Positions 3,337 through 34,851 of a stretch of 35,227 nucleotides of DNA are shown here, piece by piece. Under the pieces are notes generated by a model, which was not told the origin of the DNA, made no database searches, and was given only the letters and a program-made list of their open reading frames with translations. This DNA comes from Candidatus Margulisiibacteriota bacterium (lineage in GTDB: Bacteria; Margulisbacteria; Riflemargulisbacteria; GWF2-39-127): NCBI GenBank assembly GCA_003242895.1, contig QKMY01000033.1, positions 1 to 35,227 of the forward strand, read 5' to 3'. Within the stretch, counting starts at the first letter, position 1. Every line of letters begins with the position of its first letter. The translations under genes and the position numbers were made by a program.

Positions 3337-3813
3337 TTATTCATTTCGCTTATCATAATAGTCTAAAATCCTATTAACACGCAACCAATTATATGTCTGC
3401 AATAATAACAACGGTACATTTATCATGCTGCCTAAAGCAATTAATCCAACATTCTTAACATTTGGCCCTACAGTAAAAAAAGTACTGGCAAGTAGCAATG
3501 AAGGAGCTATCCAGGTAACAGAATGCACTGTAAAATTATATTTAATTTGGTTCCTATATTGTAATAATCCTTCAATATTATTTGATGGCAGTTTGTATTG
3601 AGTTCTATTCAGCGTAGAGATTAATATTTTACCAAGTTTTTGTATTTGCATATTTTGTAACGATCTTTCTAACAGACCTGGTGGTGCAATCTGATTTTTG
3701 GCTCGGGCTTTTTCCTTAGTAAAAGGCACCTTATTCCACGGGGGCAACACAGGTACGGGATTAATATTGTCCCGTATAACGTTTTTTGGCAATGCCATAA
3801 GCTTCTTATTCAT
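3337..3813 (-). CDS. Hypothetical membrane protein
   Basis: 158 residues, with a good start: GAGGATG lies 5 bases before the ATG. The N-terminal 100 residues are polar and basic with proline-rich VPVLPPWNKVPF. Two hydrophobic segments follow at about residues 98-117 and 122-140, then the basic tail YNWLRVNRILDYYDKRNE. The last segment (N-x-P, then Q-x-YN-x-x-R) faintly recalls the C-terminus of small membrane acyltransferases of the CrtO type, but the N-terminus does not fit, so I do not assign that function. Transcribed away from the CPBP protease gene. Confidence 0.6.
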   Translation of the reverse strand: MNKKLMALPKNVIRDNINPVPVLPPWNKVPFTKEKARAKNQIAPPGLLERSLQNMQIQKLGKILISTLNRTQYKLPSNNIEGLLQYRNQIKYNFTVHSVTWIAPSLLLASTFFTVGPNVKNVGLIALGSMINVPLLLLQTYNWLRVNRILDYYDKRNE

Positions 3814-6092: not shown

Positions 6093-7790
6093 ATGGAAAA
6101 AACCTGCGATGTAATAATAATCGGGGCCGGGCCGGCTGGAGCACAGGCTGCCTATAATTTTGCCAAAAATGGCTTTGAAACTATCATCCTCGAAAAACAA
6201 TCTTTGAACAGGGAAAAAATCTGCGGCGGCGGCATCTTCGTCCAGGAAATAGTCGAATTCGGACCGCTGCCTGACCAGGTTATCGAGCGCTCAATCCGTA
6301 CATTACGGTTCAACTCGCCACATTATAGCCGGAACGTTCATTTACCGGACAATATGCCGGCAGGAGTAATTGTCAAACGTGGTCTCTACGACTGCTATTT
6401 ACAGGAACAAGCAGCTAAAGCAGGCGCGCGATTCTGCGAGCTGGCTTCGGTTATCGACATCAATTACAGAAAAAACGCAGTTGAAGTTCAAGTCAGCACA
6501 AAGGAAAAAACCTCAACGATCAAGGCCCGCTTATTAATCGATGCCAGTGGCTGGTCGTCCCTGGTTGCCAAGAAGAGTAACAGAGCTATGAACCCAACGG
6601 ACTATATTGCTGCCTACAAATGCTGGCTCGAAATGCCGCAAGCTTCGATAAACGAACATTATGGCGATTCGATTGAATTCTTTTTTAATTCTGAAATTAT
6701 ACCGGATGGCTATATCTGGATATTTCCCAAAAGAGACATCCTGGATGTCGGCATCGGCTGTCTAGCATCTAATGTGCAGCAGAAAAAAATCAATTTAAAA
6801 ACCGCACTCAGCACTTTTATTCAAAACCACCCTCTCTTGAAAAAAGCAGCCCTGACTCATAGCCAAGGCGGGTGGATCCCTTGCCGAATACACCCTTCTC
6901 TCGTTTATGACAGAACACTACTGGTAGGGGATGCCGGAGGAATTTCCAGCCCTTTACACGGTGGCGGGATCTATTATGCCAGATATTCCGGAAAATGGGC
7001 GGCTCATTATGGGTCACAATATCTCCTTACCAACCAAAAAGAGCATTTAGCAGATTACGAAAGCAAAATGATAAGCGAGCTCTACGAGAAAGACTTCAAA
7101 TGGGACGAAAGAATGCGCCCGTTTTTAGGCGATAACGAACTAGTGGACTTGCTGGTCAATTCAAGGCATAAAAATGTTGACAGATTTTTTGTCGACCTCT
7201 TTACCGGAACTGTTCCACATAAAAAGGTCTATAAGTTAATCATCGAAACAATGCAGGAAATTATTGCCACAGAGAATCCAATCATACAGAAAGATGATAA
7301 ACGAACGTATATCCCGGTTCCCTCGCACTTAACGATTGACGCGTTCCATGGAATTAAGCCTAAACGGATACTATTAGCTATCTCGTACTGCTTAAAAAGC
7401 AACCTCTGCCCTGCCGGGAAGTTCAGCGATAAATGCATCCAATGCAAGCTCTGTCCGGTATCTGAGCTGATTGATCTGGCACAGCAGCATAGCCTCACTC
7501 ATTATATTGTAACGACAAGCGGCAGCTTCATGAATTATTTAGACCATAACCATACAGGCTTCGATAGGTTATTGGCGATTTCCTGCTCTACCGTCGCAAA
7601 CAAGATAGCGTTATTGGTAAACAGAAAATATCGTTTGGAAGGATACACCATTATTCTAGGCGGCGAAGTCTGCACAACCGAAAAAGACTACAGCCATAGC
7701 GAAAATGGCAGCAAACATTCTCAGACATGCTTAGACATGCCTATCATGACAGAGTTATTATCAGATATCGCACATGTAACCGCAAAATAA
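6093..7790 (+). CDS. Geranylgeranyl-reductase-family flavoprotein fused to DUF116
   Basis: 565 residues, about 150 longer than a plain geranylgeranyl reductase. Residues 1-370 are a group-A flavoprotein fold: dinucleotide motif GAGPAG at 11-16, the FAD-ribose Glu in ILEK at about 34, CGGGIF near 44, and the second FAD motif VGDAGGISSPLHGGGIYYA around 277. This family reduces prenyl double bonds in lipids, quinones or chlorophyll. Residues about 410-555 look like DUF116: SNLCPAGKFSDKCIQCKLCP with four closely spaced cysteines, then alternating strand/helix pattern. DUF116 is uncharacterised; the cysteines suggest metal or Fe-S binding (inference). It is 82 bases upstream of hypD, same strand, so cotranscription is likely. 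Substrate unknown. Confidence 0.82.
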   Translation: MEKTCDVIIIGAGPAGAQAAYNFAKNGFETIILEKQSLNREKICGGGIFVQEIVEFGPLPDQVIERSIRTLRFNSPHYSRNVHLPDNMPAGVIVKRGLYDCYLQEQAAKAGARFCELASVIDINYRKNAVEVQVSTKEKTSTIKARLLIDASGWSSLVAKKSNRAMNPTDYIAAYKCWLEMPQASINEHYGDSIEFFFNSEIIPDGYIWIFPKRDILDVGIGCLASNVQQKKINLKTALSTFIQNHPLLKKAALTHSQGGWIPCRIHPSLVYDRTLLVGDAGGISSPLHGGGIYYARYSGKWAAHYGSQYLLTNQKEHLADYESKMISELYEKDFKWDERMRPFLGDNELVDLLVNSRHKNVDRFFVDLFTGTVPHKKVYKLIIETMQEIIATENPIIQKDDKRTYIPVPSHLTIDAFHGIKPKRILLAISYCLKSNLCPAGKFSDKCIQCKLCPVSELIDLAQQHSLTHYIVTTSGSFMNYLDHNHTGFDRLLAISCSTVANKIALLVNRKYRLEGYTIILGGEVCTTEKDYSHSENGSKHSQTCLDMPIMTELLSDIAHVTAK

Positions 7791-7872
7791 TCTTGATGAG
7801 TGAAGCAAACCAATTTCTTAAAACTTGATTTTTGAGGAAAAAGAGAGTATCGTTATCGCAGGTTTTCTCAAA

Positions 7873-8997
7873 ATGAAATATACATCGACCTTTCACGATA
7901 TTAATTATTCAAAAGCACTTATCGCCGACTTAAAAGCCGAAACGCATAAAGACAGGCACTACCACTTCATGGAATTCTGTGGCGGACATACCCACAGTAT
8001 TTTTCGATTCGGATTAGAAAGTATTCTTCCTGATCAGATTAAAATGATCCACGGACCAGGCTGTCCGGTTTGCGTTTTGCCTATCGGCAGATTGGACATG
8101 GCAATTAAGCTAGCCCAAGAAAAAAACATTATCCTCTGTTCATATGGTGACATGATGAGAGTTCCGGGTTCAAAAAAAACAAGTTTGCTCCATGAAAAAG
8201 CCAAGGGCGCAGATGTGAGAATGGTCTACTCGTGCCTGGAAACTATTCAAATCGCACAGGAGAACCCTGAACAAGAGGTTGTTTTCTTTGCAATCGGTTT
8301 CGAGACCACAACTCCACCAACAGCAGTAGTGCTCAAACAGGCAGAAAGTCTTGGACTGAAAAACTTCAGTGTTTTTTGCAATCATGTCCTAACCCCGTCA
8401 GCTATCCAGAATATCCTTGAATCACGCGATGTGCGTGAACTTGACTCGGTCCCGCTCGACGGATTTGTTGGTCCGGGCCATGTCAGCGCTGTTATCGGAA
8501 GCCAGCCATTCGAGTTCTTTGCACAAGAATACCAGAAGCCTGTTGCTATTGCGGGCTTCGAGGCGGGAGACCTGCTTGAAGCGGTCCTAATGCTCGTCAG
8601 ACAGGTAAATGAAGGCCGACACGAAGTTGAAAATGCATATCCCCGGCTGGTTACCAGAGAAGGGAATATCAAAGCGAAACAACTCGTCGCAGAAACATTC
8701 GAACTACGCAAAGTGTTTGAATGGCGCGGATTAGGTCAGGTACCTTATAGCGCATTACGTATCAAGGCACAATTTGAAAATTTCGACGCCGAAACCAAGT
8801 TCCAAATGCAACCGATCAGTTCCCCCGATCACAAAGGCTGCGAATGCGGCACTATACTTCGAGGATTGAAACTGCCGACTGAATGCAAACTATTCGGCAA
8901 GCTCTGTACACCTGAGTATCCGGTTGGCTCGTGCATGGTTTCCCATGAAGGCGCCTGCGCGGCGTATTTTAGATATGCTACCCATCTAAATAAATGA
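7873..8997 (+). CDS. hypD: Hydrogenase maturation factor HypD
   Basis: 374 residues, the family length. HypD, with HypC and HypE, assembles the Fe(CN)2CO group of [NiFe]-hydrogenases and carries a [4Fe-4S] cluster. Visible motifs: CGGHTH at 36-41, GPGCPVC at 61-67, then FETTTP, the GPGHVSAVIG segment, VAGFEAGD, VENAYPR and the C-terminal cysteine set (CECGTILRG, LFGKLCTPEYPVGSCMVS, EGACAAYFRY). The start at 7873 is chosen because MKYTSTFHDINYSK aligns with the usual HypD N-terminus; a longer frame from TTG at 7825 has no better ribosome-binding site. Its stop overlaps the next start by four bases (ATGA), showing translational coupling to hypX. No hypC, hypE or hydrogenase subunits are in this window. 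Confidence 0.96.
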   Translation: MKYTSTFHDINYSKALIADLKAETHKDRHYHFMEFCGGHTHSIFRFGLESILPDQIKMIHGPGCPVCVLPIGRLDMAIKLAQEKNIILCSYGDMMRVPGSKKTSLLHEKAKGADVRMVYSCLETIQIAQENPEQEVVFFAIGFETTTPPTAVVLKQAESLGLKNFSVFCNHVLTPSAIQNILESRDVRELDSVPLDGFVGPGHVSAVIGSQPFEFFAQEYQKPVAIAGFEAGDLLEAVLMLVRQVNEGRHEVENAYPRLVTREGNIKAKQLVAETFELRKVFEWRGLGQVPYSALRIKAQFENFDAETKFQMQPISSPDHKGCECGTILRGLKLPTECKLFGKLCTPEYPVGSCMVSHEGACAAYFRYATHLNK

Positions 8998-10691
8998 AAA
9001 TATTATTTCTTACCCATAGTTTTAATAGTTTAGCCCAACGACTTTTTGTGGAACTCAAAAAACACGGGCACGAAATGTCTATTGAATTCGATATCAACGA
9101 TTCCGTTTCAGTTAAAGCAACGGAACTGTTCCAACCTGACATTATCGTAGCTCCCTTCCTTAAGCGTGCTATTCCTGAAACTATCTGGAAAAACTATATT
9201 TGCCTGGTAGTTCATCCCGGAATCAAGGGAGACCGTGGCCCTTCAGCGCTTGACTGGGCAATAATGAACAGTGAAAGCGAATGGGGAATTACAGTCCTCC
9301 AGGCAAACGCCGAAATGGACGGCGGAGATATTTGGGCCACACGCACGTTCCCGCTGCGTAAAGCCTCAAAAAGCAGTATCTACCGGAATGAAGTAACCGA
9401 AGCAGCCGTAACAGCCATTTTGGAGTCACTTGAAAAATTCGAACAAGGAGATTTCGTCCCTGCCCCGCTCGACTATAATAAGAATGAAATACGCGGGCAG
9501 TTTCATCCGTTGATGAAACAATCCGATCGCGCAATTGATTGGAAAAACGATACAGCCCAGCGTATTGTACAGAAAATCCGTTCCGGAGATGGCGTGCCGG
9601 GCACGCTTGGCACGATTGCAGGTCTGGTTTGTTACTTATATAATGCCTGTGAAGACCTGACTATGCAAGGGACTCCAGGCAAAATCATTGCTCACCGTAA
9701 TGGGGCAATCTGCGTCGCTGCCATTAACGGCGGTGTCTGGATAACCCATATGCGAATTGATTCGGGTGAACGAGGATTCAAGCTTCCGGCGACAATGGTC
9801 CTTGGTGATCGGCTACAAGGAATTCCGGAGTTTCCTGAACCAACCGAGTACGGCGTGAGCATCGACAGTTTCCAGGGGATCTCGTACCAGGAAACCGATG
9901 GCGTTGGATATCTGGCATTTAACTTTTATAATGGGGCGATGAATACACACCAATGCCAACAATTATTACAAGCCTACCGCATCATAAAAAAAAGGAATAT
10001 TAGAGTAATCGTGTTAATGGGCGGGATAGATTTCTGGTCGAACGGTATTCATCTTAATTGTATTGAAGCTGCACCATGTCCGGCGGACGAATCACTAAAC
10101 AACATTGAAGCAATTAACGATATTGTAAGGGAAATCATTCTTACAGAGGACCAGATTACTATCTCGGCGCTACGGGGAAATGCCGGTGCAGGCGGCGTAT
10201 TCATGGCCCTCGCCTGTGATCATGTATGGGCCCGGGAAGGAATTATCCTTAACCCCCATTACAAGAATATCGGCAATTTATTTGGTTCCGAATATTGGAC
10301 ATACCTGCTTCCCAAACGAGTTGGTCTAGACAAAGCCGGAGAGATTATGTCGAACAGACTCCCGATTGGCACACAAGAAGCAATTGACGCAGGGCTAATA
10401 GATGTGACGTTAAGTACCACACAGGAAACATTCCGGGAAGAAATAACAGCACAGGCAAAATCACTGGCTACCGGTCCTGCCTGGGAGGAAAAACTAAAAA
10501 TAAAACTTGCCCGCCGGGCTGCAGATGAAACAAATAAACCCTTGGAGCGCTACAGAAAAGAAGAACTGGCCCGCATGAAGCTCAACTTTTACGGATTTGA
10601 TCCGAGCTATCATGTAGCGCGCTACAACTTTGTCCATAAAATACCGAAATCCCGTACCCCCTTGCATCTGGCAATCCATCGAGACAGATAA
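8994..10691 (+). CDS. hypX: HypX: formyltransferase/enoyl-CoA-hydratase fusion for CO ligand synthesis
   Basis: 565 residues with the two-domain plan of HypX (HoxX). The N-terminal 1-290 is a formyl-THF-type transferase: VVHPGIKGDRGPSALDWAI with His74, and VLQANAEMDGGDIWA with Asp109, followed by an OB-like part. The C-terminal domain (about 305-470) is crotonase-like: LAFNFYNGAMNT, the oxyanion regions VLMGGIDFWSNGIHLN and ALRGNAGAGGVFMALACDHV. In characterised HypX, formyl-THF is converted through formyl-CoA to CO, which becomes the active-site CO ligand when hydrogenase matures in the presence of oxygen. Coupled to hypD by a four-base overlap. Suggests an oxygen-exposed [NiFe]-hydrogenase elsewhere in the genome (inference). 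Confidence 0.93.
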   Translation: MKILFLTHSFNSLAQRLFVELKKHGHEMSIEFDINDSVSVKATELFQPDIIVAPFLKRAIPETIWKNYICLVVHPGIKGDRGPSALDWAIMNSESEWGITVLQANAEMDGGDIWATRTFPLRKASKSSIYRNEVTEAAVTAILESLEKFEQGDFVPAPLDYNKNEIRGQFHPLMKQSDRAIDWKNDTAQRIVQKIRSGDGVPGTLGTIAGLVCYLYNACEDLTMQGTPGKIIAHRNGAICVAAINGGVWITHMRIDSGERGFKLPATMVLGDRLQGIPEFPEPTEYGVSIDSFQGISYQETDGVGYLAFNFYNGAMNTHQCQQLLQAYRIIKKRNIRVIVLMGGIDFWSNGIHLNCIEAAPCPADESLNNIEAINDIVREIILTEDQITISALRGNAGAGGVFMALACDHVWAREGIILNPHYKNIGNLFGSEYWTYLLPKRVGLDKAGEIMSNRLPIGTQEAIDAGLIDVTLSTTQETFREEITAQAKSLATGPAWEEKLKIKLARRAADETNKPLERYRKEELARMKLNFYGFDPSYHVARYNFVHKIPKSRTPLHLAIHRDR

Positions 10692-27025: not shown

Positions 27026-27961
27026 TTAATGCAGGAGAGACAAATACATAGAAAGTGATCGAGGCGTTTCTGCATATTGAGACAAAAGAGAAATAGCATT
27101 AACATAATCAAAACTTAAATTACATTTATATCTTTTATCAAACATCTTCGAATCTTTTTTACACACTTCATTTTTCAATTTTTTTAAAAAAGATATAAAA
27201 AACATAAGTTCAAACTTACCTCTAAAATATTTTCCCTTATCATTCTTATTAAAATAAATTATCTTAAGTTTTATTTCGGCAGCAGCAATTTGAGGAGCAT
27301 CCTCAAATATTTTTCTAATTATTGATATCTTTTTTAAATCATTTAAATCACATAAACTCTTCAAATCATCTTTCACTAAGAACCTAAAATAATTCCTCAA
27401 AGAATCATCAATTTTCAAATAAGTTTTGGATTTAGTTTTTAATCTCAAATCCGCTTGTACTGCTAAAAAAGCATTTAAAAGCAAAGTATTATCATGAAAC
27501 TTCTTTATTAAATTTTCATATAATTTCATTATTTTAATATAATCTTTGCTGTTTTCTTCAACTCCAAATTCATGAAGAATTACTTTTTTTATTGAAGAAT
27601 TTTGAACATAACAATTTTCAATTGAATAATATGGGAGGATATAAATAGATTCATCAAGCTTTTCACAAACGTAATCCATATCAACAAAATAACAAATACT
27701 AGCATCACGGTATCCCTCAATACGGGACATCATTTTATTAATATTAATCACATTTTCCCTACCGCCACAGATAAAATCCTTATACACTCTTCCTGTTTTA
27801 ATCTCTATTCGATTGCAATAATACTTAATATCATCCTTACCTTCAAAAAAACAATACAGGATATCACTATCAGGTTTATATGCTGATGCGAACTGAGTAA
27901 AAGCAACATATTCAGATTCGACTTCTGCTCGCATTTTTTCTAACATTTCATCAACAATCAT
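27026..27961 (-). CDS. ariB: DUF4435 TOPRIM-like protein, PARIS AriB-like effector
   Basis: 311 residues. DUF4435/TOPRIM marks: FFEGKDDIKYY with Glu40, CGGRENVININK near 66, the Asp pair of YFVDMDY (Asp94, Asp96), and ILPYYSIENCYV at about 109-120. These are the metal-binding acidic residues of a TOPRIM-type nuclease. In described PARIS systems AriB is held by AriA and released when a phage trigger protein is sensed, then cuts host tRNA and stops growth (family knowledge). It is coupled to the ATPase gene by a four-base overlap (ATGA). The coding DNA is much more A+T-rich than the 6-26 kb genes, pointing to transfer. Confidence high for DUF4435, somewhat lower for strict PARIS membership. Confidence 0.85.
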   Translation of the reverse strand: MIVDEMLEKMRAEVESEYVAFTQFASAYKPDSDILYCFFEGKDDIKYYCNRIEIKTGRVYKDFICGGRENVININKMMSRIEGYRDASICYFVDMDYVCEKLDESIYILPYYSIENCYVQNSSIKKVILHEFGVEENSKDYIKIMKLYENLIKKFHDNTLLLNAFLAVQADLRLKTKSKTYLKIDDSLRNYFRFLVKDDLKSLCDLNDLKKISIIRKIFEDAPQIAAAEIKLKIIYFNKNDKGKYFRGKFELMFFISFLKKLKNEVCKKDSKMFDKRYKCNLSFDYVNAISLLSQYAETPRSLSMYLSLLH

Positions 27962-29328
27962 GCTTTTTCCTTTACATACAAACTCATTCCAGACGCATAT
28001 TTATCAAGATCGTTATTAAATATAAAAGGCGAATGAGTAACTGATAATAAAAATATACATTTATTAGAATCTACAACATGGGGAAGTAACATTTTTTGCC
28101 ACTCTAACGACAAAGACAACTCTGGTTCATCAAACAATACTACCAAATTGCTTTTATCTTCTAAATATAACTTCGAAAACAGAGATATTATCTGCTTCTC
28201 GCCAGAAGAAAGCATACTTAAAGAAACTTGGCAACCATCTTGCTTTTTTCTATAAATATTAACATCAACAGAGCTCTCGTCATATATAAATTGCTTATCA
28301 TTTAAATATTCATTACAAACTGACACGAACTTTTTTACAGAATCATCTAAATGCTTGTGTTGATCATAAATATCAATCAGTTTCAGAATAAAATACACCA
28401 AATGTTGTTTTTTCTTTAAACTATCTTTTTTTTCTAATAGATTCAATATAGTATTTCTATCTTGATCTGATAGATTATTTCCAACTCGATGAATAATAAT
28501 TTTTACCGTATTTTCATCTAAAGCATCTATAGCCTTGTCGTCAATTGCAGGAAACCCTCTTAATAATTGAGATAGCATTTCTCCGGTTAATTTTGAAAAT
28601 CCAGATATAGTTGATTTATTTATTAGCTTCTCAATATTACCTATACGTAACTCCACGTCTTCCATACCAAAATGAATTAATATATCTTCACTAATTTCTA
28701 TATCTTCTTCTATTTCATCAGTTATATAATCATCATCAAAAGACTGATGGCCAACCCGCCTTCTAAATTTGCCTAAATTTTTTAAATCCTCTTCAACCCT
28801 GCGATAAGTGGGAAAATACAAAACTGAAAATTTTTTCGAATCGATAATCGCTGCACATTGTTTGAAATTTTCAAACAGAGGCTCAGATGCAAAATACATC
28901 AATTCACGAGCCATAATGCGTAAAGGGGCAAACTGTCTTACTTTATTAACAAGAAGATACTGGATTATTTTCTCAATAGAAGTATCTTTCTCTTCAGTTA
29001 TAAATTTTTTTATATCATTAATATTTATACCTTCAAAAAAACTTTTAGGTATCCTTTTATTATTACTTCTTTCTAACATTTCTATATAGTTTTCCAATTC
29101 ATATTTCTTAAACTTTATAGTCTTATTATCATCAAAAACCAACATTACACTTTCAAAATTAATTTGAACCAATTTATGATATTTTTGGGTCAAAACAAAA
29201 TACATAGCATTTAAAATAGTTGTTTTACCTAAACCGTTTTCACCTATTAAAATTTTCACATTATCTTTGAACTTAATATCAACATCGCGAAAACCAAAAA
29301 GTTTTGTTATTACAAAGCGTTTTATCAC
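27958..29328 (-). CDS. ariA: AAA/ABC-type ATPase, PARIS AriA-like sensor
   Basis: 456 residues starting at GTG, with AAGGAG six bases upstream. An SMC/ABC-type ATPase head split by a central helical insert: Walker A GENGLGKTT at 29-37, a long middle region (about 90-330), the ABC signature LSSGE at 373-377, Walker B LVVLFDEPE (Asp400, Glu401) and the switch His432 in THSPFIF. The order ATPase then DUF4435 gene with coupled starts is the AriA-AriB arrangement. AriA is thought to assemble into a multimer that sequesters AriB and senses phage anti-restriction proteins. A generic OLD-like or AAA_15/AAA_21 protein is the alternative, but the DUF4435 partner makes PARIS the best reading. Confidence 0.87.
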   Translation of the reverse strand: MIKRFVITKLFGFRDVDIKFKDNVKILIGENGLGKTTILNAMYFVLTQKYHKLVQINFESVMLVFDDNKTIKFKKYELENYIEMLERSNNKRIPKSFFEGININDIKKFITEEKDTSIEKIIQYLLVNKVRQFAPLRIMARELMYFASEPLFENFKQCAAIIDSKKFSVLYFPTYRRVEEDLKNLGKFRRRVGHQSFDDDYITDEIEEDIEISEDILIHFGMEDVELRIGNIEKLINKSTISGFSKLTGEMLSQLLRGFPAIDDKAIDALDENTVKIIIHRVGNNLSDQDRNTILNLLEKKDSLKKKQHLVYFILKLIDIYDQHKHLDDSVKKFVSVCNEYLNDKQFIYDESSVDVNIYRKKQDGCQVSLSMLSSGEKQIISLFSKLYLEDKSNLVVLFDEPELSLSLEWQKMLLPHVVDSNKCIFLLSVTHSPFIFNNDLDKYASGMSLYVKEKA

Positions 29329-30005: not shown

Positions 30006-30848
30006 ATGAACACTATCCAGCAAAAACTAAAAGAATATCTGAAACTGAAAGGGTATGCAAAAAAAACCCAAAAAGCATATTTTAGTGCTTTGCGTTGTTT
30101 TGAGGATTATTATCATAAAAGCCCAAAACAGCTTGGAAATATAGAAGTCAGGAACTTCCTTCTCCATCTCATCAGGATCAACAGAGCTTCTTCTACTCTC
30201 AGAATATATTACTCGGCTCTCAGCGTCGTTTACAAAAACATCCTCAACCAGCCTGAGGTCATGCTCAATATCCCTATGTTCAAAAAAGACAAAAAAAGAT
30301 TACCTGTCATTCTAAGCCGGGAAGAAATCAACAAAATACTCTCCGTAACTACTAACAAAAAGCACAGAGCCATGATTGCTGTTGCTTATTCTTCCGGACT
30401 CAGAGTCTCTGAAGTAGTTAATCTCACGGTAAAAGATATCGACAGTGATAGACTAATGCTCAATATTAGAAAAACTAAAGGCGGTTATGACAGAAGCACT
30501 ATCCTCTCGAAAAAAACTTTACATATTCTCAGAGAATACTATGCTATTTACAGACCAAACAACTTCTTGTTCCAAGGCAAGAAAAACAACCTTTTTGCTG
30601 ATGTACAACTTACGACCAGAACAATCCAGCGTGTTTTTCATCAAGCTAAAATAGCTGCTGGCATTACCAAAGATGTCTCCTTCCATTCCCTCCGTCACAG
30701 CTTTGCGACTCATCTCATCGAAGACGGCGTTAACATCCTTTTTGTTCAACGCCTGCTTGGCCACGCGCTCCTTAAAACCACACTCATCTATCTCCACACC
30801 ACCAGTCAATCGCTATCAGGCATCAACAGCCCTTTCGATAATTTCTAA
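30006..30848 (+). CDS. Tyrosine recombinase/site-specific integrase
   Basis: 280 residues, intact, with AAGGAG eight bases before the ATG. A SAM-like DNA-binding domain (1-95, typical KGYAKKTQKAYFSALRCFEDYY opening) is followed by the catalytic domain. The full residue set is present: Arg133 in SGLRVSEV, Lys158 in KTKGG, His227 and Arg230 in FHSLRHSFATHL, His253 in LLGHALLKTT and nucleophile Tyr262 in IYLHTT. It breaks and rejoins DNA via a 3'-phosphotyrosine. Its place just before the IS91 transposase marks it as the element's accessory recombinase, but it could also act on nearby sites. The first 240 bases of the overlapping transposase frame (from 30673) are just a shadow of this gene. Confidence 0.95.
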   Translation: MNTIQQKLKEYLKLKGYAKKTQKAYFSALRCFEDYYHKSPKQLGNIEVRNFLLHLIRINRASSTLRIYYSALSVVYKNILNQPEVMLNIPMFKKDKKRLPVILSREEINKILSVTTNKKHRAMIAVAYSSGLRVSEVVNLTVKDIDSDRLMLNIRKTKGGYDRSTILSKKTLHILREYYAIYRPNNFLFQGKKNNLFADVQLTTRTIQRVFHQAKIAAGITKDVSFHSLRHSFATHLIEDGVNILFVQRLLGHALLKTTLIYLHTTSQSLSGINSPFDNF

Positions 30849-30852
30849 ATCC

Positions 30853-31867
30853 ATGTTGAAAAAACCGGATATCGAAGTCGCGGATATTTTCCGTATGCAT
30901 GGCGATCAATATAGAAGCTCGCACAACCTATCCCTCTGGCAGCACAAAACTATGAACGCTATTCAACTTTGCAGGACCCCTGCTCTTGGGGCCAACTCCC
31001 AAACTGTTTGTGATTACTGCGGTACTGTAGAAATATCTTACAATTCCTGCAGAAACCGCCACTGTCCCAAATGCCAATTCCGCAGAACTCTTAACTGGAT
31101 CGATGCCAGAATAAACGACCTACTTCCGGTCCAATATTTTCATGTGGTTTTTACACTACCCGACCTGCTTGAACCGATCATTCTCATGAACCAGAAAATC
31201 ATGTACAATCTCTTATTCAAATGTGCTTCGGAAACACTCATCGAACTTGGAAAAGACCAGAAACATCTGGGCGCTGAGGTTGGGTTTATCGGCGTACTCC
31301 ATACCTGGGATCAGAAAATCCTGGAACATACCCACCTGCACTGCATCGTTCCGGGCGGTGGCTTGTCTCTTGATCAAACCAAATGGATTTCCTGTAAAAA
31401 TGATTACCTGATCCCTGTACAGGTCCTATCGGCTTTATTCAAGAAAAAGTTCCTTTATTACCTAAAGATCTTAATGAAGGAGGACAAACTCAAATATGGA
31501 CGGGGAATTGGTCAGACTGTTCAGCTGTTCAAGATTATCAGTAAATTATATAAAATTGAATGGGTCGTTTACTCCAAGCCAACTTTCAACAGCCCGGAAT
31601 CTGTCATCAAATATCTGGGTAAATACACTCACCGCATTGCTATCAGCAATTACAGAATTCTGGAACTAAAAAATAACAGGGTTAGCTAAACAGCTTCTTG
31701 GAATGTCTGTATCGTCTTCGGGTATTCATGGTACTAAACCGGAGCATACTGCTTGTGCCGGGGCCATTTTTGAAAAAACAGGATTTGATATTTCTATCTG
31801 CCCTTTTTGCGGCAAAGGATATTTGATCACAAAAAACCTTATCAGCTGGCTTTTTATTCCTCCTTAA
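30853..31867 (+). pseudogene. IS91-family transposase, internal deletion and frameshift
   Basis: From ATG at 30853 the frame runs to TAA at 31687-31689. It contains the N-terminal zinc-binding part (CDYCGTVEISYNSCRNRHCPKCQ split by motif: C-x2-C, C-x4-H-C-x2-C), the HUH motif in HTHLHCIVPGGG, and the catalytic tyrosines in KYLGKYTHRIAIS. After LELKNNRVS the family normally continues for some 60-70 residues. Instead, one base later and in the +1 frame, the sequence reads KQLLGMSVSSSGIH and ends with the usual zinc knuckle CPFCGKG and stop at 31865-31867. So a central piece has been lost and the frame shifted. Rolling-circle transposition is presumably abolished. Confidence 0.85.
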
Positions 31868-32239
31868 AGGAAACAATTTTGATTGTTATAATATTAACTT
31901 CTTACCTGCGTTCATTTGCTATCTCAGATAGCCCCAGGATAGCTATACCCTATCTCTATCGTTTTTTATCTATGCCAGACCGTATTTCAAATTTGAGACA
32001 GCATTGCTTGATCCACACGCTTGACTACTCTTTAAATTCTCCTGTTTTTCTTGATCTTCTCGCTATTCTTATCGTTACAGTCTTCAATTCACAGCCACAA
32101 AACCGATTGAATTCCCATAGCAACTAAACAGCTTTCTTGCGCGCCTCTGTTCAACGCCGCACTGAAGACATGAGAAGCGACTCCTCCTCCACGCTCACCG
32201 GCTTCTCACGATCTTCCGTGCTTTAACATTAGATGGACA
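31868..32239. other. Non-coding stretch after the IS91 pseudogene
   Basis: No gene is visible. The first 240 bases are AT-rich with no motif. From about 32,130 it becomes GC-rich, with the hairpin TGAGAAGC (32171-32178) and GCTTCTCA (32201-32208) around a 22-base loop. It probably contains the right end of the IS91-like unit. Confidence 0.4.
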
Positions 32240-32360
32240 TTATGCCACCTCCGGGTATTAAATGAGTTGTCTCCTTGCCTCAAGACCACATCATTCGCGT
32301 GCAAGAAAGTCGGCTGACATCGTGTCAGCCTCTAAGCACCGGTCGTCCTGACCAGCGCGG
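32240..32360 (+). repeat. Structured inverted element A, left edge of the HNH-YhcG cassette
   Basis: Blocks in order: TTATGCCACC (32240-32249), CCTCAAG (32279-32285), ACATCATTCGCG (32288-32299), hairpin GGCTGACA-TCG-TGTCAGCC (32312-32330), hairpin GGTC-GTCCT-GACC (32341-32353). Element B at the other side of the two nuclease genes has the first and third blocks on the opposite strand with an identical 48-base offset, and its two hairpins at nearly the same distances. So A and B are diverged inverted copies. Confidence 0.75.
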
Positions 32361-32437
32361 GAATTATAGAGTAATTTTGATATTTATAGTATTATAAAAT
32401 TTGTAATAGAAAAAGAAGCAATAGGGAAGAAATAAAA

Positions 32438-33505
32438 ATGCCAAGGAAAATGCCAGGCAATATCTTAATAATTATTCTAGGTTTAATTGTATATGCAGTA
32501 TACCTTATTATATCTGCTGTAGTTTTTTTAATACAACCAATAGTAATCATTACCATAATCTGCGGAGGAATGTTAATAATTTATCAAATTTACAGTAATT
32601 TGTATTTCAACAGTAATGATTTTAAAAATATTAAAGATAGCATTAAAGACCATACAAAAAACTGCAATGAACTAAATCATCATATTGAAGAGTTAAAGTG
32701 CTCATATGTGAATATAAAGTCATATGATTACGGAGAAAGCCATTTATATGACAATAGTAATTATAATTTCAAAAGAAAAGAATGGAGTAAAGACTTTAAA
32801 AGTAATCTAAAACACAATTGCTCTGCAACTGTCTGCAAAAATGCGAGTACTCAGCCATTTAAATATCTTTGCAAATACTTTGATATAGAAATAAACGAAG
32901 AAACATTGTCAAATTTTGAAAGTGTATTGAATGATTTTGCTGCTGCTGAACAAGGAAAAATATTATTGCAAAACGAAAGAGATTTAATATTGAACAATAT
33001 TAGCAATTCCATTCCCATATTAATATATTCTTTCAGTAAAAATAAGTTGATTAAAAAATTAGGGTTGGAAGCTATTGATTTGAGCGACTTGTACTTTCCA
33101 ATTTATACATTTCAATATGTATCACCTGGTGGAAATAGTTCTTCTAAATGCGATATAAAATTAAACATAGAAAATCTAGATAAATTTATAAAGCATCTTC
33201 ACGACTTAGTAAAATTCAGAAAAAGTATTGAAGGCCAAAGAGCATTAATGACATCAAATTTACGAGAAATAATCAAAATCAGAGATAATTATACTTGTAA
33301 GAAATGCGGATTATCAATTAATGATGAAAAAAATTTATTATTAGAAATAGACCATATCGTTCCTCTTGCGAAAGGAGGTATTACATCAGAAAATAACCTG
33401 CAAACATTATGTTGGAAGTGTAATCGCTCAAAAGGGTCAAAAGTTGAAGCCAGACAAATAATTTTCAACATGGAAAAAGGAATCATTGATAAAAAAAAAT
33501 TATAA
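32438..33505 (+). CDS. Membrane-anchored HNH endonuclease
   Basis: 355 residues. Two adjacent hydrophobic helices at about 9-31 and 34-52 form an N-terminal hairpin anchor. A long charged middle (about 55-275) has no recognised domain. The C-terminus, about 282-335, is an HNH nuclease with a zinc knuckle: YTCKKCGL, then LEIDHIVPLAKGG with the catalytic Asp-His, then NNLQTLCWKCNRSKGSK with the Asn and second Cys pair. HNH proteins cut or nick DNA. Membrane tethering of such a nuclease is seen in several anti-phage proteins. Very A+T-rich coding sequence, suggesting transfer. The next gene starts 25 bases after its stop, so the two nucleases form an operon. The ATG has AGGGAAG upstream. Confidence 0.85.
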   Translation: MPRKMPGNILIIILGLIVYAVYLIISAVVFLIQPIVIITIICGGMLIIYQIYSNLYFNSNDFKNIKDSIKDHTKNCNELNHHIEELKCSYVNIKSYDYGESHLYDNSNYNFKRKEWSKDFKSNLKHNCSATVCKNASTQPFKYLCKYFDIEINEETLSNFESVLNDFAAAEQGKILLQNERDLILNNISNSIPILIYSFSKNKLIKKLGLEAIDLSDLYFPIYTFQYVSPGGNSSSKCDIKLNIENLDKFIKHLHDLVKFRKSIEGQRALMTSNLREIIKIRDNYTCKKCGLSINDEKNLLLEIDHIVPLAKGGITSENNLQTLCWKCNRSKGSKVEARQIIFNMEKGIIDKKKL

Positions 33506-33529
33506 TGTAATTTGAGGAGCAATTTCATA

Positions 33530-34564
33530 ATGAGCAATATAAAACCTGACAAATCATACATCGATACTCTTTCACTAATCAAGCAAAAGATCAAAACTGC
33601 CCAAATCAAAGCAACATTATCTGTAAATGCCGAAATGCTATTACTATACTGGGATATAGGCAACACAATCCTCGAACAACAAAAGAAAGAAGGCTGGGGA
33701 GCAAAAGTAATTGACCGGCTGGCTGCTGATCTGCAAAAAACTTTTCCTGATATGAAGGGGTTTTCTTCGCGTAACCTAAAGTATATGCGTAAATTTGCCA
33801 ATACTTTCCCGGATAATATAATTGTGCAAGAGGTGCTTGCACAAATTACCTGGTATCACAATATTACGTTGTTGGATAAGATCGATTCTCAAAATGAAAT
33901 ACTCTGGTATGCAAGAAAGACTGCCGAAAATGGCTGGTCACGCAATATACTTGTTCATCAGTTAGAGAACAATCTATATCAGCGTCAGGCAATGGCAGAA
34001 AAAACCACAAATTTTGAGCGAACACTTTCGGCCCCAACTTCTGATCTTGCAATAGAAATCATTAAAGACCCGTACAAGTTTGATTTTTTATCCCTTGGGA
34101 ATGATGCTCATGAACGTGAAGTAGAAAAAGAACTTATTAAGCATATATCTGACTTTTTACTTGAACTGGGAGCAGGATTCGCCTTTATTGGTCGCCAATA
34201 TCACCTTGAGCTTGATGAAAAAGATTATTACATTGACCTGCTTTTTTATCATACCCGGCTACATTGTTATGTAGTCATCGAGTTAAAAATCGGCGATTTT
34301 CTCCCGGAATATGTTGGTAAGATGAATTTTTATCTCTCTGCTGTAGATGATCTGCTAAAATCACAACATGATAACCCATCAATCGGAATCATCCTTTGTA
34401 AGACCAAGAAAAAACTTACAGCAGAATACGCATTACGTGATACAACAAAACCGATGGGAATAGCCGAATACAAATTAACAGAAGCTATCCCAGATGATTT
34501 AAAAACCAGTCTCCCATCCATCGAAGAACTGGAAAAGGGGTTGGAGAATGAGCTTACAGAATAA
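33530..34564 (+). CDS. YhcG-type PDDEXK nuclease (DUF1016)
   Basis: 344 residues from the ATG at 33530, which follows GAGGAGC; a TTG six codons earlier is less likely. The N-terminal domain (about 10-150) is DUF1016_N: LLLYWDIGNTILEQQKKEGWGAKVIDRLAADL, GFSSRNLKYMRKFA, WYHNITLLDKI. The C-terminal part is the PDDEXK-like nuclease: PYKFDFLSLG, GFAFIGRQYHLEL and YYIDLLFYHTRLHCYVVIELK, giving the Asp and the Glu-x-Lys of the active site. YhcG proteins are often found in restriction-modification or other defence islands; their exact role is unsettled. Its base composition is closer to the host genes than the HNH gene is. Confidence 0.93.
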   Translation: MSNIKPDKSYIDTLSLIKQKIKTAQIKATLSVNAEMLLLYWDIGNTILEQQKKEGWGAKVIDRLAADLQKTFPDMKGFSSRNLKYMRKFANTFPDNIIVQEVLAQITWYHNITLLDKIDSQNEILWYARKTAENGWSRNILVHQLENNLYQRQAMAEKTTNFERTLSAPTSDLAIEIIKDPYKFDFLSLGNDAHEREVEKELIKHISDFLLELGAGFAFIGRQYHLELDEKDYYIDLLFYHTRLHCYVVIELKIGDFLPEYVGKMNFYLSAVDDLLKSQHDNPSIGIILCKTKKKLTAEYALRDTTKPMGIAEYKLTEAIPDDLKTSLPSIEELEKGLENELTE

Positions 34565-34599
34565 AACAAGCTTTTCAATTCGTGTTGATTTATAAGCTA

Positions 34600-34730
34600 C
34601 CACCTCAACAGCCAATCGTCCTGATTGTCTGTTGCCCCCTCTTCGACATCGTGTCTCAGAGGGCTTTGTGCGCGAATGATGTTCAATATTTTCCAGATGA
34701 TTCCTGTTAACCTCAAGTCCGGTGGCATAA
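34600..34730 (-). repeat. Structured inverted element B, right edge of the HNH-YhcG cassette
   Basis: On the minus strand: TTATGCCACC (34730-34721), ACATCATTCGCG (34682-34671, again offset 48), a hairpin with stems CCCTCT/AGAGGG and GACA/TGTC (34663-34637) and a hairpin CAATC/GATTG (34627-34613). The ends can also close on themselves through CCACC/GGTGG (34600-34604 with 34721-34725) and AACAG/CTGTT (34607-34611 with 34704-34708). It is the partner of element A. On the plus strand the hairpin loops read TCG and GTCCT, just as in A, although the flanking blocks are inverted. Confidence 0.75.
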
Positions 34731-34732
34731 CG

Positions 34733-34798
34733 GTCGAGTAGGAGGGGCATGAGCCCCGTCCTCTCACAGAACCGTGCGTACGGTTCCGTACACGGCTC
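34733..34798 (-). ncRNA. Group II intron domains V and VI
   Basis: On the minus strand domain V runs 34798-34769: GAGCCGT pairs with ACGGTTC, enclosing GTACG/CGTAC with a short GAAC loop and a two-base GC bulge; the AGC catalytic triad is in GAGCC. Domain VI follows: AGGA-C-GGGGC, loop TCAT, GCCCC-TCCT, then an unpaired A seven bases from the end, in TACTCGAC, which is in the right place for the branch-point adenosine. Both domains look intact. Confidence 0.85.
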
Positions 34799-34851
34799 TT
34801 CATGACAGTTTTATGTATTTGTTTATCCCAAACCAATGCACTTCTTTCTTA

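Follow-up and report, generated by a model that had tools for sequence, protein, structure and literature searches.

Archaeal geranylgeranyl reductases (GGRs) saturate isoprenoid double bonds with the help of a separate ferredoxin, and the enzyme of M. acetivorans requires one whose gene lies at its own locus (PMC10821996). LipT, another GGR-family flavoprotein, belongs to the sLpl(AB)/LipS1/LipS2 lipoate pathway (PMC10332631). The domain DUF116 (COG1852, arCOG02078) occurs in methanogens in proteins with two N-terminal membrane segments, encoded near sulfite/nitrite reductase or ATPase genes; PMC5898192 predicts an electron-transfer role, taking conserved cysteines including a CxxCxxC motif as ferredoxin-like, and reports a fusion to a polyprenyl synthetase in Pirellula. 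Within the open-licence literature the terms COG1852, arCOG02078, PF01976 and pfam01976 are mentioned only in PMC5898192. Here we describe a gene that joins a GGR-family flavoprotein and DUF116 in one chain ahead of the hydrogenase maturation genes hypD and hypX. It lies on contig 33 (QKMY01000033.1) of a Candidatus Margulisiibacteriota genome of 3.35 Mb in 82 contigs (hereafter G000), and the window analysed is the whole 35,227-nucleotide (nt) contig. The features discussed are these:

6093 to 7790, plus strand: GGR-DUF116 fusion gene, 565 amino acids (single open frame; Pfam and NCBIfam matches)
6093 to 7262, plus strand: GGR module, residues 1-390 (phmmer alignment to 3oz2 over residues 3-390)
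6222 to 6224, plus strand: C44 of the GGR module, active-site type (motif position)
6711 to 6758, plus strand: YIWIFP-x7-GIG, residues 207-222 of the GGR module (motif position)
6960 to 6968, plus strand: GGG, residues 290-292 of the GGR module (motif position)
7290 to 7769, plus strand: DUF116 module, residues 400-559 (Pfam match 400-502 plus a tail common to lipoate-ligase DUF116)
7791 to 7872, plus strand: gap of 82 nt from the fusion gene to the likely hypD start (terminator and promoter scan)
7873 to 8997, plus strand: hypD, for which the open reading frame call starts at TTG 7825 (TIGR00075; alignment to PDB 2z1d)
8994 to 10691, plus strand: hypX, with H74, D80, D109, Y423 and E433 (phmmer to 6j0p)

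The original prediction, made from the sequence alone, that such a fusion precedes hypD and hypX holds: all three genes share a strand, and in one 565-residue frame Pfam places FAD_oxidored at residues 6-159, GGR_cat at 191-253 and DUF116 (PF01976; 42.4 bits, cut-off 25) at 400-502, each above cut-off. The model TIGR02032 (GG-red-SF) is passed with a score of 220.5 against 158.8, and the T. acidophilum geranylgeranyl reductase 3oz2 aligns with residues 3-390 (phmmer, E 2e-30). The protein carries the complete archaeal-type motif set, C44, YxWxFP-x7/8-GxG and GGG, elements conserved in the archaeal enzymes according to a survey of active GGRs (PMC6309074). It resembles the archaeal enzymes with partner ferredoxins (T. 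acidophilum 3oz2; M. acetivorans) in its flavin adenine dinucleotide (FAD) domain, active-site cysteine, YxWxFP-x7-GxG and GGG, and differs from them by the C-terminal DUF116 in the same chain. The best relatives in the analysis are about 27-30% identical. Identity as BchP/ChlP was rejected (TIGR02023 score 189.8, below the cut-off of 343.3). The score with the FixC model PRK10157, 38.5, is below the cut-off of 610, but the FixC-like proteins of two other genomes of the survey, G006 and G002, also fall below it (302.8 and 275.8).

The DUF116 half contains eight cysteines, C433, C439, C448, C451, C454, C498, C527 and C546, among which C448, C451 and C454 form a CxxCxxC motif. A cluster of four cysteines had been expected between residues 410 and 470; the number there is five, all within residues 433-454. 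Seven of the eight (433, 439, 448, 451, 454, 498 and 527) are common to other copies of the domain. In one alignment of four distinct copies (the fusion, a second DUF116 of G000 that stands alone beside a CheX gene, and those of genomes G076 and G453) seven cysteine columns are shared, and in a second alignment the seventh cysteine is shifted in the stand-alone copy. The conserved cysteines, CxxCxxC included, are also a likeness to the methanogen proteins of PMC5898192, whereas the window DUF116 is the C-terminal domain of a soluble-looking flavoprotein. A search of the PDB with the DUF116 half returned chance-level matches only (best E 0.96).

In G076 and G453 the domain terminates a lipoate-protein ligase (PF21948 + PF01976). 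The DUF116s are 17-22% identical to one another; that of the fusion matches the G453 copy with E 2e-5, in an alignment that runs beyond the Pfam domain to residue 559, and the G076 copy with E 0.005. Near the ligase-DUF116 genes of both genomes lie LipS1-like proteins (204 bits in G076 and 198 in G453, just below the cut-off of 230) and a GCV_H-type protein that we read as LbpA; the G453 cluster contains a LipS2-like protein as well (186.5 against a cut-off of 270), and the part of G076 that was read shows no LipS2. Both clusters further encode GGR-family flavoproteins, read as LipT, which pass TIGR02032 (189.9 in G076 and 178.5 in G453, against 158.8). The lipT gene overlaps the ligase-DUF116 gene by 4 nt in G076 and lies 5.7 kb from it in G453. 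Genome G553 also has LipT beside DUF116, and is not independent of G453 because the two are syntenic, with matched proteins 81-99.5% identical. The LipT systems (PMC10332631) resemble the fusion in belonging to the GG-red-SF subfamily and in placing lipT beside a DUF116 domain (G076, G453, G553), and differ in that DUF116 sits on the ligase rather than on the flavoprotein. DUF116 thus has a GGR-family flavoprotein as its partner in each of two distinct settings. Two further observations concern G453, where a HypC-family gene overlaps the ligase-DUF116 gene tail to tail by 9 nt, and sulfur-handling genes, read by eye as DsrE and TusA types, stand beside it.

The survey took in the window's own phylum and Pseudomonadota. 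DUF116 occurs in one of 74 genomes of the phylum, G000 itself, and in 2 of 398 sampled Pseudomonadota genomes; a sample from the order of G453, overlapping the former, likewise gave 2 of 398, one of them G453 again. The fusion query matches 33 of 55 relatives, and there is no second fusion among them, since outside G000 every match stops by residue 380. When genome contigs were searched with the fusion, the only matches were two of 45 residues, from Asticcacaulis. On plasmids, tblastn with the stand-alone copy and with the fusion half found no DUF116, a search that is weak at the identity of 17-22% between DUF116s. Neither the DUF116 half nor HypX found a relative among viral sequences, and the E. 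coli control genome gave no DUF116 match.

The explanation we favour, tentatively and at slightly less than an even chance, is that the fusion is a flavin/iron-sulfur (Fe-S) reductase of two modules, with DUF116 as the relay and a prenyl-type substrate. DUF116 would be a cysteine-ligated, probably Fe-S, electron relay for the GGR-family FAD protein of the same chain. Electrons might pass from ferredoxin or NAD(P)H to DUF116 and on to the flavin, which would most likely saturate isoprenoid double bonds, making the protein a self-fed prenyl reductase. A relay fits because the cysteines are conserved, because DUF116 pairs with GGRs in two settings and because the M. acetivorans GGR needs a ferredoxin. 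The redox role that the original prediction had proposed thus gains support, from a cysteine pattern kept in four copies of a domain that is fused to, or encoded in overlap with, GGR-family flavoproteins.

Several points weigh against this explanation. The motifs of LipT are nearly the same as those of the fusion, so the motif set is no proof of prenyl reduction. In a 24-row tree the GGR module joins no supported group, while the two LipTs join each other. Beyond the window the pairing of DUF116 with flavoproteins amounts to two lineages. The cluster, flavin and substrate of the fusion are all predicted features, and a single-sequence fold prediction gave a pLDDT (predicted local distance difference test) of 33.6, too low for use. 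Finally, the position of the fusion gene next to hypD may have a meaning of its own.

G000 has a single HypD match, the window hypD (TIGR00075, 457.7 against a cut-off of 192.8). Its start is probably ATG 7873, the listed TTG 7825 being 48 nt too early, as the resulting MKYT.. is like the first residues, MKY or MRY, of several other HypDs; hypD would consequently be separated from the fusion gene by 82 nt instead of 34. Numbered from TTG 7825, C52, C80, C83 and positions of the C339/C354/C361/C378 type align with 2z1d, the cluster being assigned by eye, and C80/C83 correspond to E. coli C69/C72. On the strand of the fusion gene, the last 4 nt of hypD (8994-8997) are also the first of hypX. HypX residues 1-563 of 565 align with the A. 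aeolicus HypX structure 6j0p (636 bits) and retain all five proposed catalytic residues, Y423/E433 being the equivalents of Y416/E426; H74, D80, D109 and Y416/E426 are proposed for formyl transfer and decarbonylation in PMC6802093. The suggestion that the fusion delivers a factor for the CO/CN chemistry finds no support, and the adjacent HypX keeps the residues proposed for making carbon monoxide (CO).

Similar HypD and HypX proteins are encoded in the hyp operons of proteobacteria (C. necator, Bradyrhizobium). At six alpha-/betaproteobacterial HypX loci the HypDs share 60.3-62.0% identity with that of the window; the figures are 48-49% for two from Campylobacterota, 47% for that of G453 and 40.2-42.9% for those of four class mates (omitting the G007 copy, a fragment). 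An 8-row tree sets the window HypD apart from those of its class (support 100/100). The window HypX is 50-51% identical, over its full length, to proteobacterial HypX. No such preference is seen in the HypE of G000, 46-52% identical to all six proteins compared, or in its HypF, 38-39% to four and 32% to a partial fifth. HypD-hypX looks acquired because its HypD is closer to the HypX-associated HypDs of alpha-/betaproteobacteria than to those of its own class. The simplest reading of these similarities is that hypD and hypX arrived together from a HypX-type operon, displacing a native hypD, and the pair would then be an acquired-looking unit for CO and scaffold. The proteobacterial HypX loci lack GGR-DUF116, so the fusion gene probably came from a different source; in G000, moreover, hypD and hypX are directly joined and hypABFCE lie on another contig. 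The three genes have a GC content of 0.44-0.46 and a third-position GC (GC3) of 0.45-0.49, against 0.39 in 126 kb of the genome sampled, a composition that cannot date the transfer since several neighbouring window genes have similar GC.

This adjacency raises the alternative that the fusion is a HypD reductase, in which electrons from NAD(P)H or ferredoxin would pass through FAD and DUF116 to the [4Fe-4S] cluster of HypD and regenerate the C80/C83 thiols for cyanide transfer onto the HypCD iron, with HypX supplying CO. We consider it unlikely; less likely again is its fuller form, in which the fusion is the missing HypD electron donor of this lineage and makes up, with the acquired HypD-HypX, a compact unit for the CO and redox half of [NiFe] cofactor assembly, in a genome that gave no match to CydA/CyoB-type oxidases. 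The fusion gene stands on the same strand as the only hypD of G000 and ends 82 nt before its likely start, and the scan found no terminator-like site on the plus strand of that gap. Inside the fusion gene, just upstream of the gap, lie the ends of two promoter-like matches, at 7747 and 7761 (24 such sites were counted in the region, with 13.7 expected), and one transcript across the fusion gene and hypD is possible. A 2025 review (PMC12134894) treats the HypD donor as unresolved and mentions unpublished data that reportedly exclude ferredoxin in E. coli. The lipoate/DUF116 cluster of G453 and G553 directly adjoins a [NiFe] hydrogenase and hypF-A-B-C-D-E, which come after it (L072, L076; L085, L086), some 21 kb separating the end of the DUF116 gene from hypD. 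In two class mates, hypF-hypD-hypE is followed by genes read as fixA-fixB-fixC-fixX:

L051, 5781 to 14051 (G006): hypF-hypD-hypE and fix-like genes, with electron-transfer flavoprotein, ferredoxin and FAD domains
L052, 5510 to 13821 (G002): hypF-hypD-hypE and fix-like genes

The FixC-like proteins of G002 and G006 are related to the GGRs but lie under their cut-off (130.4 and 128.8 against 158.8), and around the hypD of G004 and G005 no fix-type electron-transfer genes were read. Flavin/Fe-S electron-transfer genes beside hypD therefore recur in the class, though not as a GGR-DUF116 fusion. As a separate observation, the FixB-like protein beside the hyp genes of G002 and G006 begins with ferredoxin domains. 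Against a HypD reductase stands its distribution. HypD occurs in 6 of the 74 phylum genomes, every one in the window's class, and the five other than G000 lack both DUF116 and HypX (HypX in 1 of 74, G000, at E<=1e-20). At 12 plasmid HypX loci from 12 genera, drawn from 49 records matching at E<=1e-20, a six-frame search with hidden Markov models found neither GGR nor DUF116 in any; a match with E=0.0095 opposite the HypX strand of a Variovorax locus was discarded as chance. Eight of these 12 stretches contain HypD, and seven have annotated hypC-D-E ahead of HypX. The E. coli control genome has no DUF116 match, and the C80/C83 chemistry runs in organisms without the fusion. Any role of the fusion as a general hyp accessory was rejected on the 0 of 12 plasmid loci and the single DUF116 genome of the phylum. 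The hydrogenase link that had been proposed has a single neighbourhood behind it, the other DUF116-flavoprotein pairings found lying in lipoate clusters. As to the suggested survey of DUF116-flavoprotein genes with hyp genes, the cluster of G453 and G553 lies beside hyp genes, and 17 kb of G076 yielded no match to HypD or HypX; with very few pairs sampled, the outcome leans towards no general association. The link looks local, and the order fusion-hypD-hypX, special to G000 in this sample, is not by itself evidence of a shared pathway. A search of the open-licence literature found no paper joining 'geranylgeranyl reductase' with 'HypD'.

A different substrate within the GGR superfamily, with DUF116 still as redox partner, is likewise unlikely; it could be the side chain of a quinone (MenJ-like) or a cofactor bound to a protein (QhpG- or LodB-like). 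The MenJ, QhpG and LodB models match the fusion significantly (71, 62 and 56 bits), a sign of how broad the superfamily is, but these scores are far under the curated cut-offs of 700, 240 and 400, and the archaeal-type motif set is complete. It is improbable that DUF116 is instead a thiol or persulfide carrier or a structural metal site, in which case the fusion would move sulfur or merely stabilise its flavoprotein. Seven conserved cysteines are compatible with several chemistries, and relatives lie beside genes named by eye as DsrE/TusA types in G453; the CxxCxxC with further cysteines is, however, taken as ferredoxin-like in PMC5898192. That the fusion supplies electrons for LipS1/LipS2 lipoyl synthesis, as a LipT, seems scarcely probable, even though DUF116 and LipT co-occur in lipoate clusters and G000 has GcvH and a ligase-like gene within its glycine-cleavage operon. 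The fusion gene is not near those genes, it has no supported tree grouping with LipT, and G000 gave no LipS1 or LipS2 match at E<=1, in a search with a shortened LipS2 query and no positive control in G000. LipT membership was rejected on this last ground, and lipoate assembly is unlikely here for the same reason.

The other hyp genes of G000, hypA, B, F, C and E, are grouped, without hypD, near the end of contig 79, and all five pass NCBIfam cut-offs. A HypF-HypE fusion suggested by frame lengths was rejected, as the contig shows separate hypF, hypC and hypE. Hydrogenase large-subunit matches fall on contigs 43, 12 and 54, best as F420-non-reducing (Vhu), sulfhydrogenase-type and complex-I subunit D, respectively, none over a curated cut-off; we read them as groups 3c, 3b and 4-like. 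The hydrogenases are like those described in PMC6349859, a likeness by which the phylum may be Margulisbacteria. HypX is the source of CO under oxic conditions. A joined query for CydA and CyoB found nothing in G000, though it had no positive control and cbb3-type oxidases fall outside it; we infer that the organism is an anaerobe. An intact HypX is present in G000, whose hydrogenases are group 3-like and which gave no CydA/CyoB match, and no paper in the open-licence literature joins 'HypX', 'hydrogenase' and 'strict anaerobes'. As a further observation on HypX, its plasmid copies in Acaryochloris (L069), Mycetohabitans (L091) and Nocardia (L094) have no annotated hyp gene within 8 kb.

Around the locus, a divergent BrkB/YihY-family gene lies 377 nt upstream of the fusion start, and scans for Rfam families and tRNAs were negative at the fusion/hyp locus. 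Among the genes near the GGR a single one of isoprenoid type was seen, a marginal match to CrtO, of a carotenoid glycosyl acyltransferase family (28.6 bits against 27.3). Further along, the window carries a PARIS-type anti-phage system, in which AriB (DUF4435) is paired with an AriA-like AAA protein at a GC of 27-28% against about 42% around it, and near the contig end a mobile and defence island with a tyrosine integrase, an IS91-type transposase, an HNH protein (GC 27%), a YhcG/DUF1016 nuclease (PADLOC PDC-S02) and a group II intron match:

3337 to 3813, minus strand: marginal CrtO match
27026 to 29328, minus strand: PARIS-type AriB and AriA-like pair
30006 to 34800: mobile and defence island
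34733 to 34800, minus strand: group II intron match, within the island

DUF116 is, to our knowledge, a domain of unknown function. That it is paired with GGR-family flavoproteins assigns it a specific role open to test, that of a redox partner, and this redox interpretation is supported, while the hydrogenase interpretation is unproven and not general in the sample. The intact HypX, alongside soluble-type [NiFe] hydrogenases and no CydA/CyoB match, bears on the source of the CO ligand in anaerobes. If the fusion does reach HypD, it would answer the question of what reduces HypD, which the 2025 review (PMC12134894) lists among the unresolved ones.

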